Below the pieces are notes generated by a model, which was given only the letters and a program-made list of their open reading frames with translations, searched no databases and was not told the DNA's origin. The translations under genes were made by a program, and so were the position numbers. Source: Caulochytrium protostelioides (taxonomy: Eukaryota > Chytridiomycota > Caulochytriomycetes > Caulochytriales > Caulochytriaceae). From it: 64,000 nt of DNA. The stretch's first letter is position 1, and each line of letters starts with the position of its first letter. Shown here piece after piece: positions 3,854 to 26,700 of this stretch. The DNA is taken from the NCBI GenBank assembly GCA_003615045.1, contig ML014199.1, positions 1 to 64,000 on the forward strand. The letters are read 5' to 3'.

Positions 3854-4600
3854 GGCGGCGAGCTCGAACGAGGGAGGCGGATGCACGGAACCACAGACGG
3901 ATGCCAGCGCGGGCGAGACGTAGAAAACAGACAACGGCACACAGGCGCGGGCGGACAGCGGAATGCAGGCGAGGTCGCCAACAGGAATCAGCGAGAGCAA
4001 TGGGATGGCTGATCGACGATGGAGCGGCCTAAAGTCGCCATGCGAGTCGACTGAGTGCGGTGCAATGTGATGTGAAGCAATGCGATCGAGCCCGTCGAGC
4101 CAATGACGGCGATCTTTTTCAGGGGAGGCGGAGGCCACTGCGCTGGCGGGAGGAACCGTCGAAGGGAGGATCCAGCGATCACGCGAACACCACCGCATCG
4201 CCTTGGCATGCTTGGCATGCGTGCTACGGTCTCGAGACGACGCCGCAGCGCGATCCCTACCGGATGGTATCGCATCGCCGCGATCGGCCGCGACAGGCGA
4301 CCTTCTCGGCGAGTAGCGACGTGCCAGCAGGCACGCCGCGACCGTCGGCGTTCACCGCTCCCTGCCTCCGCGCACGCCCCGGCCGCGGCTGGCGTAACAC
4401 ACCCGCCACCAAGGGCCAGGGCGGGCGATTGCTCGGGGTTTCGGGTCGGCGGCGATAGGGGGCGCGGCGTGGCCCTTGCGGCTGTGCGAAGCCGCCGCGG
4501 CCACCACCGCCACCGCTACAATGACGCGAGCCATAGGATGACCGCCTCGCCACGATCCACCACATTCATCGCCCGTCGAGTCCCATAAGCCAGCAAAGGC
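3854..4600. other. Intergenic upstream of BAR gene
   Basis: No supported gene. Contains the BAR-gene promoter side and ends where the decayed Fanzor-like element begins. Small open frames on both strands show no family resemblance. Confidence 0.55.
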
Positions 4601-6300
4601 TGATGCTTCGGTATCGAGGGTCTTGGTGGAGCCGCGCCGATCCGCAGTTGCATGGGTCGGGGGAACGAGACAACTATCAACAAATTAGTCAAAGCGCGGA
4701 TCAAGCAGTACCTGCGCGTCTTCTAAGCGGCCAACGGCCTGACGGACCCGCCGTTTGTCTCGGTGTTGTATGCGATATGCGGCTGGAAGCCGCGTCGGGA
4801 CTCGCCCGCCGTGAGCGGTCGCCCCTCATGGAGCATACGGTGGCTGCGCACTGCCGCGTGCTGGGCATCGCGGTGGACAAACAAGCGCCCAGTCGTTGGC
4901 TGAAGAGGAAGGGCACCTTGCCGCGCCTCGTGCGCCACGCCTTCCTCGTCTGGCGATACACTGAAGCCGCTGAGCAGCAGGCCGTCAACGTTGTGCCGGT
5001 GGTCCAGCGGGCTGTCCAATTCATCACGATCGACGCCTGCGTGATTTACGGTCTGCTGACGGAATTGAAGCGGGTGCCCTGCAACGAGAAGACCCTCCCG
5101 GCCATGATCCCGCCAGAGCAATGAGGGTTACCCTGGCGTTCCGCCAGCTGGAAGGCAAGGATCACACGTTCACGGGAACCGTCGACCCTGACGGGACGAG
5201 TATGTGCGTCCACTTTGTGCGCAAGAAGAAGGTGGCCGACGTCGTGCGGATTGTCACGGCGTTCTTTTGGACCCCCGGGGCCAAGGACCCCTTGGTAGGC
5301 AGCCCCGATCAGATGGAGCACCCCTTGGCAGCGTGGATCAGACCGAGAAACCCCTGGCAAAGAGCCTGGATGACTACTGCATCATCGGAAACGACCCGGA
5401 CCACACCAACATCTTCTCTATGGCCATGGTGGGGCCCAAAGGCCAGGTCGTCAGCTGGAAGTTGAGCCGAAGGCAATACTACGTGGAATCCGACATGAAA
5501 GCCGCCCAAAAGCAGTCAGAGACCTGGCAGCGCTGTCTCAAGGAGCCGCTGCAGCAGCTGCCGGAGGTCAGCATCAAAGGCACAGTGCCCCCCGCGCACC
5601 GCCGATTCCTGGAGGTATGGCTCGCCACGTATAAGCCGCTATGGGTCGAGTTCCTGAAGCTGGGCACGCCTGCGCCTGCGGTTGTATAGCGGCAAGCAGC
5701 GCGTGTTTGCCAAGTTCATTAAACCGCGTCGCCAAGGGGGCGGCCACGGCGAAGAAGCTCGTCGTCGCTGAAGTGGTGGTTGCCTATGGGGCCTCCAAGT
5801 TTGCCCCCGGCCGCAAGAACGAGATCTCGTTTCCAACCGCTCGCGCGTACCAGGCGTAAGCCCAGCGGTTCCGCACCATCCAGGTCGACGAGTTCCGGAC
5901 GACCCAAGTGCATGCCGAGTCGAATCAGGTCCTGACCAAGGCAAAAATCCGGGACGGTCGTGCCAACGTTTCGCGCGTCCCGGGCGCGCCTCCCCGGCCA
6001 AGCCGACGCCGGCCACCCCGGCCCGCACGATCCAGCATCTGGTTGTAGGTCCTGAAGCATGTGGTTCTGAAACCCGGTCAACGCCGGCGCCAGGGGACTA
6101 CGGTTTGTGGCTTGCTGTGGTATGAATCCACCAACGGCAAGTTGGTGAACCGCGACCTCAATGCCGCGTTGAACACGACGCCGACGCTGTCTGGCCTTAC
6201 CCGACGGCCCGAAGGCGCCGTGTCGCAAGCCATGTTGCAGCCCAAGATCGGCAAACTCATCCGCCACGGATCCAGGATGCGTACCGCGTCGGTCGGGGAC
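4600..6300 (+). pseudogene. Fanzor-like (TnpB-related) RuvC nuclease relic, copy 1
   Basis: Broken remains of a eukaryotic TnpB homologue. Segments in different plus-strand frames line up in family order. About 4900-5090 is the pre-nuclease region (VQFITIDACVIYGLL). About 5121-5260 has the 'F-G-x-DG' segment (FTGTVDPDGTSMCVHF). Around 5381-5470 is RuvC-I (IIGNDPDHTNIF with Asp at 5393-5395, then LSRRQYYVES). About 5670-5725 is a linker (LYSGKQRVFAKFIK). Around 5761-5930 is RuvC-II (VVVAYGASKFAPG, then QVDEFRT with Glu at 5890-5892). Around 6110-6270 is RuvC-III (NRDLNAALN with Asp at 6154-6156) and a KIGKLI tail. At least three frame changes and an in-frame TAA (5857-5859) break it. The zinc-ribbon cysteines expected before NRDLNAA are missing (GLLWYES). 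The catalytic residues themselves persist, so decay looks fairly recent. It could in part be intron-split, but the stops and lost cysteines argue for a pseudogene. Confidence 0.82.
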
Positions 6301-6768
6301 CTCTGGGGGGGCATGGTGTGCTTTCTGGGTCGCGGAGGGTGGGCCTCCTCCCTCCCCGCCACGAGGTCCGGCGACGGCGACGGCCGATCCTTGCGTGGAG
6401 CCACCTTTCGTCAAGCCAGCGTTTTCTACAGATGTTTATGTTTTATTTTATGTTATTTTATTTTACCGCCGCCGCCGCCGCCGCTCGCTGTCGTTGTCAT
6501 GGACGCGCGTCGCCGGCGTTGCCGCGGATACCGCGGATACCGAATGCGCGTCGGCTTCGGGAGGGACCCCTAGGGGGGCACCCCTGAAGATTGGGGTGCG
6601 CATTGGGTCCATTTATGGACGGCCGCGTTTCACTCAATATACAAATGTCTGCAGATGTCAGCAGCGGTGCCGGCCTATGGCCCGCGGCTGCCGTGCGGAC
6701 CAGACGGTTTAACGGGCGGGAGTGGGGATGCCAAGCGAGGGTCAGAACAGCACACTTTTCAAACGACA
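6301..6768. other. Intergenic; right flank of Fanzor relic
   Basis: No gene. Contains an AT-rich island (about 6421-6464) followed by a short CCG run, unlike surrounding GC-rich DNA. The 3' end of the PB1-like gene lies on the right. Possible element boundary, but no clear terminal repeat was seen. Confidence 0.5.
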
Positions 6769-23962: not shown

Positions 23963-25918
23963 GATGCTGTCGCTGCCGAATGTCTACCCTACGACGCAGA
24001 TCGGAGTGAAACAGTCTGGACAAAGAGCGTTGAAACACGATCGGCGACTGTGCTGCCGGTGTCGGTATATAATCTTTTTTGTGGCGCCGCTCTAGGTCTT
24101 ACAGCAGCGGATCACCCAAAGCGCTGGAGCGATGATGGGTTGATAGGATCACGATGATGAAGATGGCGGTCAACGAAAGTGCGGGTCGATCCGAAGAAGA
24201 AGGTTTCGGTAATAGGGTCCAATGAAGAAGGATGGCCGGCTCCAGCGCTAGCTCAAGTCGTCAGCGCCCGGAACAAGCTTGAAGTCGTCGACAAGAGAAC
24301 GTGTCCCGCGTCGGCTGGTTGGGTGATGATCCCGGTCGTCTACGAGAGAAGGCTAAAACTGAAAGACAGGTTTGACTGATGGCGTGCTTGCATACGAGGG
24401 AGCTATTCTGGCGGGGCTCCTGACGGAGACCGCTTTTCCCGCTCGGCAAAGGTCAAATCCATCAAATCCGTCAAATCAACCCAATGGTGCGAGATCAAAA
24501 AATGCATGTCGTCGTCTGAGCGAGGCTGAACCAATGGACACCGTCGTGCCCATGCCGGACCCCGTTCGTGCTGCTGGCCCACGTCACGCGAGGAGGCGGG
24601 CGTTCAGGCGCCATTCATAAACTGTCTCACCCCGGTCGGGATCGACATCGCCGGCCTTCCGGCGTGGTAGCGGTCGCTTCACCCAGGATGGCCCTCTCTG
24701 GGCGTCAGCTAGTCCCGAGGCGACGCCTTTTCGTCTGGGTGCAACCTTCGGCACCTCCGATGCGGTTCGCGGTGAGGTGCCTCGCACCCGTAGAAAAAAT
24801 TGAGGGTGCCCGATCACCGACAGCACCTGAATGTATTTATATCTCCAGTGAAAAAAAGGCCAAATCCGGGTTGGCGCCGCGAGGGACCGTGATCGGCAAC
24901 CCGTCGCGCCGTCTCGTCGCGGCGCCCCCCAGTCTCGTCGCGCCGTTTTCCAAGATCGGGCTCCGCCACGACGTCTCAGCGTCTTGCCGCCTCGCTGTCT
25001 CGCTGTCTCACCGTCTCACCGTCTCACCGTCTCGCCGTCTCGCCGTCTCACCGTCTCACCGTCTCACCGTCTCACCGTCTCACCGGTGCTCGCCTCCATC
25101 CGCGCGTCACGTTGGCACGGCCCACGTCAACAAAAACAAGCAAAACAACACAGATGGCTGGCATGAAGGGGGATGGGGGCAGGTGACACCGTCGATCGAG
25201 CTCACCCAGAGCCCCCGCCCAGCCTCTCCTAGCCATCGGTGTTCAAGACCCCAGCCACCGGTGTTCGAACCCAGCGCCGCGGCGAGTCTCCGTCGTTCTT
25301 CGGCCGAGCCCTGACGGGTCCAGGATCGACATGGCACACGCCAGCCGACGCTTGACGCAATGAAGGCGTCAGCATCACTTCCTTCCATCGTCCCAATTCC
25401 CGTCCAAGTGAGAGATGCTGGACACGCCGGATCTCTCTCAAGCCACCACCCACGCGGAGTTCGCACGGATGACACGGCGAGACATGGATCGATTCTGCCC
25501 CGCCACACACCTATGACCTATGCGTCAGGCAAGAGAAAGTCGCGGCCTTTTCGATGGTTTACTGGGCCGATTGAACGAGAAAAACGTTGATGGCGGTATG
25601 GCAGGGGGCGGAGGGAGTTGACTTCAAGCTCGGGATGAAAAGAGGCAAAATGAATAAATACGTCGATGCATTAAAGGACAGAGATCTCGCAGAGTCTCGG
25701 ACCTCGGCCATCGGTGGCTAAGTCCGCAACCAGGCGATCAACGCGCATCAGCAAAATCGCTTCCTTTGCATGGTATGGGAATTTTCAAAGTTTCGAGGCA
25801 GCTCGCATTTACGCATCGACGTTAGGAACATACAGGCACTCTCTCGTGAGACGACCTAACAGGAACACCATGCCCTCCTTGGTGCCGCCCAACTGGCCCC
25901 CCACAGCGGCAGCCCGCA
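23963..25918. other. Intergenic, upstream of SFP1-like gene
   Basis: No supported gene over about 2 kb. It contains the SFP1-like promoter on the left, A-rich patches, and an 8-bp minisatellite (24986-25084). Open frames across the minisatellite arise because the unit lacks stop codons, not because they code. Confidence 0.55.
24986..25084. repeat. 8-bp minisatellite (CCGTCTCA/G)n
   Basis: Roughly twelve tandem copies of an 8-base unit CCGTCTCA, with A/G variation at the last base and CTGTCTC variants at the left edge. Because 8 is not a multiple of 3, translated frames repeat every eight residues (for example SPSHRLTV), giving spurious open frames. Confidence 0.92.
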
Positions 25919-26700
25919 TCAGGTTTCTCGCCGGATGGGCTTGCCGATCACGGGCTGCAGTGGCGCTTGCCTGGGGATGCGGCACAGCGCCGCAGGCCTG
26001 ACCCGTGAGGCCAGGCAGTGTCGGATGTTCAATGCGGCATTAAGGTCGTGATTCATGAACTCGCTGTGGCGGAGTCGCATCACAGCAAACCTCGGACCAC
26101 GGTCCCCTTGCGCCCAAAGTGGCCTGTTTTCAGACCCCGATACACCCGGGACCTTGTCGACCGGCGTCGGGTCGGTCGGGTGGGCGCCCCGTCTGAGACG
26201 CGCGAGACGTCGGAACGTCCATCGTGTCCCAGATGTGCACTTTCGCCAGGACCCAATTCGTCTCGGCATGCACCCGGGTCGTCCGAAACTCGTCCGAAAC
26301 TCGGGCAGACGCCTTGTACGCTCGAACTGCTGGGACGGCGATCTCGCCCTCGCCCTCTCGGCCTCCGGGGGCAAACTTGGTGCGCCAGAGGCGACCTCCA
26401 CGGGCTTCTTCTCCGCGGTTGTCACGTCGGCAATGCGGTTGAAGAACTTGACAAACACGCGCCGGCATACGCATACCGATACCGCCATCGCATGTGAATG
26501 CGATGTGAATGTGAAGCCCTGCATGTAGACGCAACGACGGATCAGGGCCCCACTCCATGTAGACTGCCCACCGGGCACCGTGCCATGCTCGTATCTGCAA
26601 AGCCCAGTGAGCATGCGACTTGATAGTTCCTGCTTCCGACCGGGGTGTATATGGTCGCTCGGCACATCCGGAGCCCAGAAGCAAATTGTCCCATCAGGTG
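25919..26700 (-). pseudogene. Fanzor-like RuvC nuclease relic, copy 2
   Basis: Second decayed member of the family seen at 4.6-6.3 kb, on the opposite strand. Family segments appear in minus-strand order. CRRVFVKFFNRIAD (about 26440) matches the QRVFAKFIK linker. KFAPGGREGEGEIAVP, then VRAYKASARVSDEFRTTRV, is RuvC-II, with the Glu codon at 26289-26291. The last stretch, FMNHDLNAALNIRHC, is RuvC-III with the Asp codon at 26045-26047, followed by VIGKPIRRET and a stop at 25919. RuvC-II and RuvC-III lie in different frames, so at least one frameshift separates them. The cysteine pairs of the zinc ribbon are absent, and I could not find a convincing RuvC-I upstream. Sequence differs clearly from copy 1, so this is an older or independent insertion, not a recent duplicate. 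Confidence 0.75.

Follow-up and report, generated by a model that had tools for sequence, protein, structure and literature searches.

The window analysed here is a stretch of 64,000 nucleotides from the chytrid Caulochytrium protostelioides (contig ML014199.1, positions 1 to 64,000), part of contig C89 in a searched genome assembly of 20.9 Mb and 337 contigs. Close to its left end lies a decayed coding region related to the Fanzor1 nucleases, followed by a degenerate noncoding tail. We read the interval 4664-6340, with a probability of roughly 0.75, as a dead, 5′-truncated copy of a multi-copy mobile element whose single gene encodes a Fanzor1-derived nuclease without a zinc ribbon. The features of this copy are given below against P0005, an uninterrupted homologue of 618 residues, and against A1, an alignment of 57 homologues from which conserved residues were counted.

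4664..6264, plus strand: decayed Fanzor1-related coding region, 5′-truncated and in changing frames (tblastn against P0005, about residues 154-617; DNA family)
5169-5195, plus strand: FTGTVDPDG, frame 3, the F-G-x-DG segment of the preliminary description
5387..5416, plus strand: RuvC-I, GNDPDHTNIF, frame 2, with the catalytic D codon at 5393-5395 (D371, invariant in A1)
5462..5482, plus strand: LSRRQYY after RuvC-I, frame 2 (L394, R396 and Y400 each kept in 90% or more of the A1 rows)
5857..5859, plus strand: in-frame TAA immediately 5′ of RuvC-II
5881..5901, plus strand: RuvC-II, QVDEFRT, frame 1, with the alternative glutamate codon at 5890-5892 (E535, invariant)
5902..6147, plus strand: zinc-ribbon position, without CxxC (window and scored clade members), carrying a low-complexity insert that varies, and a TAG at 6046-6048
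6148..6174, plus strand: RuvC-III, NRDLNAALN, frame 1, with the catalytic D codon at 6154-6156 (D579, kept in 90% or more of the A1 rows)
6277..6340, plus strand: degenerate 3′ tail of the copy, candidate guide-RNA scaffold region (tail model R1, 22.8 bits, E 3.6e-6)

A tblastn search with P0005 returned six collinear pieces across three frames of 4664-6264 (E 9e-53), matching residues 154-192, 205-299, 307-363, 339-459, 462-482 and 479-617. The best piece scored 112 bits, against at most 26.2 bits in 300 dinucleotide shuffles of 4600-6300, only 7 of which gave any high-scoring segment pair at E<=10, and 17.3 bits for the reversed segment. The motif segments named in the preliminary description are present on the plus strand, in the right order and in changing frames, and are collinear with P0005. 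Its view of the locus as a relic also holds, on the evidence of the frame changes, the stops, a RuvC-I that reads DPD where homologues have DPG, and the absence of about 150 N-terminal residues. The frameshifts it described are real; its count of one stop is too low, since the aligned pieces contain three (TAA at 4724-4726, TAA at 5857-5859 and TAG at 6046-6048). DNA similarity of this copy to others begins at about 4695 and runs past the end of the coding region into the tail.

Whether the family should be called Fanzor depends upon the definition that is used. The 2013 Fanzor1 motif is given as D-x(125,275)-[TS][TS]xx-[C4 zinc finger]-x(5,50)-RD (PMC3627910), and a fingerprint described in 2023 consists of a DPG in RuvC1 together with an alternative glutamate (PMC10711439). 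The order of catalytic D, [TS][TS] and RD is kept in the window and in the homologues; because the C4 finger was looked for and is absent, the family is not a Fanzor by the 2013 motif. By the 2023 fingerprint, by fold and by profile it is a Fanzor1 derivative, and the kinship proposed in the preliminary description is upheld by the agreement of profile, fold and catalytic residues. The fold is that of Fanzor1 and is closer to Fanzor1 than to Fanzor2 or TnpB. E535 aligns with E541 of SpuFz1, the Fanzor1 of the SPu-1 element of Spizellomyces punctatus, as counted by hand in the alignment, and this alternative glutamate adjoins the ribbon position. Upstream, D[PA]G[RKC] is found in 122 of 135 scored homologues, the window copy having DPD instead. 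A predicted viral protein from BFVD, A0A6G6XPP9, also matches the fold (template-modelling scores 0.84/0.90, 30% identity over 617 columns). The Pfam model PF07282 (Cas12f1-like_TNB) gave no match in the genome, while a control matched in 6 of 14 genomes, and it exceeded its cut-off in none of 10 homologues; at E<=0.1 it matched 21 of 57 (best 0.00024). Counter to this negative, the precomputed Pfam column does list PF07282 for P0124, P0184 and P0185. The same column lists PF26935, perhaps a new model for this very family, for 18 of 70 homologues (P0001-P0070).

Across the 57 homologues of A1 the catalytic D and E are invariant and the third D is present in at least 90%, and the encoded enzyme is probably an RNA-guided DNA nuclease. 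Some TnpB derivatives have turned into RNA-guided repressors, and this clade has lost a conserved part of the protein, the ribbon; both points would suit a repurposed, guide-RNA-bound DNA-binding protein that no longer cuts. The conservation of the catalytic residues tells against such a protein, and we consider repurposing unlikely.

The absence of the ribbon cysteines was noticed in the preliminary description, which calls them lost; the observation is right, but taken as damage to this copy it is misread. A C4 ribbon is part of the 2013 motif (PMC3627910) and is visible in the alignments of three solved Fanzor1s, the closest relatives of known structure; SpuFz1, from a chytrid host as here, has one (CPRC...CTNPNC) where the Caulochytrium family has none. 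The interval from the RuvC-II glutamate to the RuvC-III aspartate contains no CxxC in any of 135 homologues (a further 28 of the 163 were not matched by the search expression). With a looser expression CxxC was found in two of 162 homologues (25 of 187 being unscored) and was missing in the other 160, uninterrupted proteins included. The two exceptions, P0184 and P0185, are among the more distant homologues and stand outside the clade; ribbon-like cysteines were also seen by eye in P0186 and P0187, both among the unscored. P0184, P0185 and P0187 share the RuvC motifs, align over 95%, 92% and 47% of the A3 query, retain CxxC...Cx4C and fall outside the zinc-less clade in a 40-protein tree rooted on P0187. 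In that tree, which included the ribbon columns, a branch supported at 100/98 separates all 37 zinc-less rows, three Caulochytrium copies among them, from the others. A point against this placement is that a tree built without the ribbon columns, from which four rows lacking the cut motif were omitted, leaves the position of the zinc-bearing P0184 unresolved.

It could be argued that the window copy descends from a typical ribbon-bearing Fanzor1 and lost its cysteines by decay once it had inserted. The copy is after all a relic, and one cysteine remains in many homologues as LLWC. The same change is nevertheless found far beyond this copy: in 36 Caulochytrium copies inspected the first cysteine pair has been replaced, mostly by HAET or HAES, and none of the 36 has CxxC. 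Together with the near-complete absence of CxxC in homologues and the mapping of the loss to one well-supported branch of the P0187-rooted tree, this makes decay after insertion very improbable. Because the ribbon is absent across the scored clade members and its loss maps to one branch, the loss is old and common to the clade. In L003, L054 and other copies the ribbon position between RuvC-II and RuvC-III is occupied by a variable, partly tandem-repeated insert rich in Pro, Arg, Ala and Thr, which is missing, judged by match lengths, in L061, L062 and P0005. Among the papers searched we found none that joins Fanzor with either Caulochytrium or the term 'zinc ribbon', and an earlier notice of a ribbon-less clade is possible.

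The family is dispersed through the genome. A 118-residue stretch around RuvC-I gave 151 matches, 150 of which merge into at least 147 places on 109 contigs. Pairwise identity among 44 loci (826 pairs sharing at least 400 bp) was 70-84% between the 5th and 95th percentiles, with a median of 77%; the best pair, both on one contig, reached 93.6% over 960 bp, and the longest near match of the window copy was 88.6% over 1660 bp. The assembly was made by single-cell methods (PMC6784888), which raises the question of contaminating sequence. Places on 109 contigs, decayed as a resident repeat would be, and a local GC content of 0.64-0.68 inside the window range of 0.59-0.75, make contamination exceedingly improbable. 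No copy spanning the whole of P0005 in one open frame was found among the 71 scored of 1241 candidates, and the intact relative that the preliminary description considered for the same genome did not appear there; uninterrupted relatives come from other data sets. The longest single-frame piece, on C276, has a frame of 527 residues (P0005 residues 80-231 and 351-434 matched), followed by a 526-residue frame on C37 (residues 352-617, with all three RuvC motif regions) and a 395-residue frame on C326 (residues 366-618). SpuFz1, by comparison, is present as 19 full-length genes. In Auxenochlorella, a small eukaryote genome, the most abundant repeat is described as encoding a Fanzor (PMC12633428), a likeness by description. 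The public gene model P0007 (CXG81DRAFT_23488, contig C6) seems to join a Fanzor fragment with unrelated sequence and is perhaps an annotation artefact. A DUF1067 match to a 74-residue frame (25.5 bits, cut-off 25) was taken as chance.

Over 413 codon columns in 42 copies, variants present in at least 20% of copies were distributed 87/73/114 over codon positions 1/2/3, whereas singletons were distributed 356/357/322 (p 0.0015). Since the skew is seen in the common variants and not in the singletons, the source elements were under selection as protein genes and the copies afterwards decayed freely. The three catalytic columns were retained in 33 of 39, 26 of 38 and 30 of 36 copies (up to 42 copies), close to the mean retention of 0.82 over the 19 scored columns that are invariant or almost so, the catalytic ones included. 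Catalytic residues have therefore survived no better than other conserved residues, and their survival is, contrary to the preliminary description, no sign of recent activity; the median pair identity of 77% speaks against it as well.

A conserved noncoding tail of about 120 nt lies 3′ of the coding region and is common to the copies. R1, a sequence-only model built from 26 tails (one of the 27 listed, L022, was omitted from alignment A2), matches 39 of the 44 loci that had been identified through their coding; 13 of these 39 are absent from its training set. It matches three places in the window (6277-6340 and 6539-6617 on the plus strand, 25853-25916 on the minus strand), the first of which is the tail of the main relic; the other two, together with a further coding relic, are as follows.

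6539..6640, plus strand: second tail with the family 3′ terminus (6620-6640, 3 mismatches; R1, 57.3 bits; 6543-6619 in the training set)
25853..25916, minus strand: tail directly 3′ of the second relic, outside the training set (R1, 36 bits, E 2.7e-10)
25928..26464, minus strand: second relic of the Fanzor family, further decayed, matching about residues 474-617 of P0005 (tblastn E 7e-16)

The second tail is either an extremely 5′-truncated copy or a duplicated 3′ end. Elements consisting of a tail alone were considered and rejected: five tail hits without listed coding each have C-terminal Fanzor coding just upstream and are hence 5′-truncated copies, and among ten further tail hits, measured by DNA only, the shortest was 138 nt. 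Two other arrangements were seen: an inverted second tail at the 5′ side of truncated coding (L012:1332-1407, L018:1328-1408 and L045:333-404, all on the minus strand), and matched coding that stops at about residue 454 and is followed by the tail (L045 and L049), which suggests amplified deletion derivatives.

The guide RNA of Spizellomyces is described as combining the roughly 80 nt that separate stop codon and right end with 14-15 nt of flanking sequence (PMC10432273), and the Caulochytrium tail occupies the same place at a similar size. The tail may form a stem of 8 pairs. In 52 R1 matches at 50 loci (E<=1e-8, drawn only from loci with an earlier match, so that the count is not a success rate), 82% of cells pair, compared with 34-56% in slid versions; five of the eight pairs have changed on both sides, and one is C-G in 22 tails and U-A in 20. 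Several results tell against the stem: the version slid by +2 has a higher covariation score, RNAalifold predicts no structure in the tail, and four single tails were not clearly better folded than shuffles (z -1.86, -1.07, +1.94 and -1.23). A second hairpin (columns 64-68 with 79-83), in which 85% of cells pair, showed zero compensatory changes and was dropped. An Rfam search returned one match at E<=1, to a microRNA family far below threshold and on the opposite strand.

At least 147 dispersed places and a fixed 3′ terminus show that the family is carried by a transposable element. In one subfamily the tail ends ...CTCAATAT. The sequence CGACCGCGTTAAACTCAATAT, or a near version (up to 5 edits), closes the tail in 34 of 59 distinct loci. 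Of these 34, 15 had been picked by their tail and 19 belong to the 44 loci found by coding; with up to 3 mismatches the sequence is found at 64 genomic places, and the backward pattern at none. Upstream the ends are ragged: in 30 of the 34 terminus loci, similarity breaks off at a distance of about 138 to 2464 nt from the terminus (L001, L009, L018 and L066 were dropped from this list and from the test for target-site duplications, TSDs). Candidate TSDs were seen at two copies. The repeat flanking L007 spans 14 bp and has a single mismatch, a score reached by 0 of 870 mispaired controls; the 8-bp repeat of L064 was matched in score by 5 of 870. We infer that the copies arose by a one-ended process, either the machinery of a long interspersed nuclear element (LINE) acting in trans or a Helitron2-like mechanism. 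Some observations weigh against such a process: the TSDs are not above chance in the other 28 of 30 copies, perhaps owing to the age of the copies, and that of L064 alone is weak given 30 tests; the ragged 5′ ends are places where DNA similarity stops, some of which later deletion or divergence may explain; and the left end of the element is poorly fixed. A comparison of the left region in L003/L050 with the right end in L050/L001 revealed no terminal inverted repeats, whereas those of SPu-1 are 30 nt long. The genome gave no match to an IS607-type TnpA resolvase (control positive in 10 of 14), and pattern scans of viral and prokaryotic contigs found no relative, which is weak evidence because the patterns are short.

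Reverse transcription primed at the tail by a LINE would yield copies with a constant 3′ end, a truncated 5′ side and TSDs of varying length; it is a tentative first choice that falls a little short of even odds. The fixed terminus with ragged 5′ ends fits it, the 14- and 8-bp TSDs adjoin the truncation point, and the genome has LINEs with endonuclease and reverse transcriptase, one of them in an open frame of 1165 residues. That LINE (L078:65-3562, plus strand) has an ATCC-repeat stretch about 0.7 kb downstream and is possibly young. Yet the LINE stretches L078 and L079 have neither the tail (on both strands) nor a close match to the terminus (plus strand only), TSDs were found in just 2 of 30 copies, and similarity between the two 5′-complete copies, L003 and L050, begins just upstream of a TATA-like word, which is unexpected in a retrocopy. 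One-ended Helitron2-like replication, a possibility to which we give somewhat less weight, is the mechanism suggested for CRe-1/2/3, Fanzor1 elements of Chlamydomonas reinhardtii that are described as having overabundant 3′ ends that are intact, 5′ truncation, internal deletions and variable TSDs of about 7-19 bp (PMC3627910). The likeness is one of element anatomy; the CRe ends match known Helitrons, whereas no Helitron was seen in Caulochytrium, where a search with Helitron_like_N gave no match, a result that shows little as the control was positive nowhere. We rank LINE action somewhat ahead of a Helitron-like mechanism, with the TATA-like start of similarity counting against it. A Ty3/Gypsy-like reverse transcriptase fragment was noted by eye about 0.8 kb upstream of one Fanzor copy (L010:3211-3501, minus strand).

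Taken as a whole, the element would comprise a single nuclease gene whose product, of Fanzor1 descent and about 620 residues or longer, has lost its C4 ribbon and kept the fold and the rearranged D-E(alternative)-D RuvC site. By analogy with Spizellomyces, RNA made from the tail of source elements and read through into the flank could serve as both scaffold and guide. The ribbon-less nuclease, charged with this RNA, might then cut DNA matching the flank at its RuvC site and so keep the element in place or spread it into empty alleles, while copies would be laid down by the one-ended process. The broader proposal is that a large eukaryotic clade derived from Fanzor1 works as catalytically intact RNA-guided nucleases without a ribbon, and that in Caulochytrium the guide-RNA tail was also the fixed 3′ end for copy-and-paste, so that target cutting could have primed the one-ended insertions; it is speculative, and we rate it as improbable in this full form.

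The conservation of catalytic residues in 57 aligned homologues, and the 160 scored protein clusters without a ribbon, suggest that a module counted in the 2013 motif and present in all three solved Fanzor1s is evolutionarily dispensable. Surveys that rely upon PF07282 or a CxxC pattern probably tend to overlook such proteins, as the lack of any PF07282 match despite at least 147 genomic places illustrates, although many of these places are too decayed to match anything. The fixed 3′ and ragged 5′ ends of the copies, which resemble the Chlamydomonas case, raise the question of how a Fanzor travels with one-ended mobilisation. The window copy alone is dead and unremarkable; it is the clade behind it that is of real interest, and its natural members of about 580-720 residues are test objects for the role of the ribbon.
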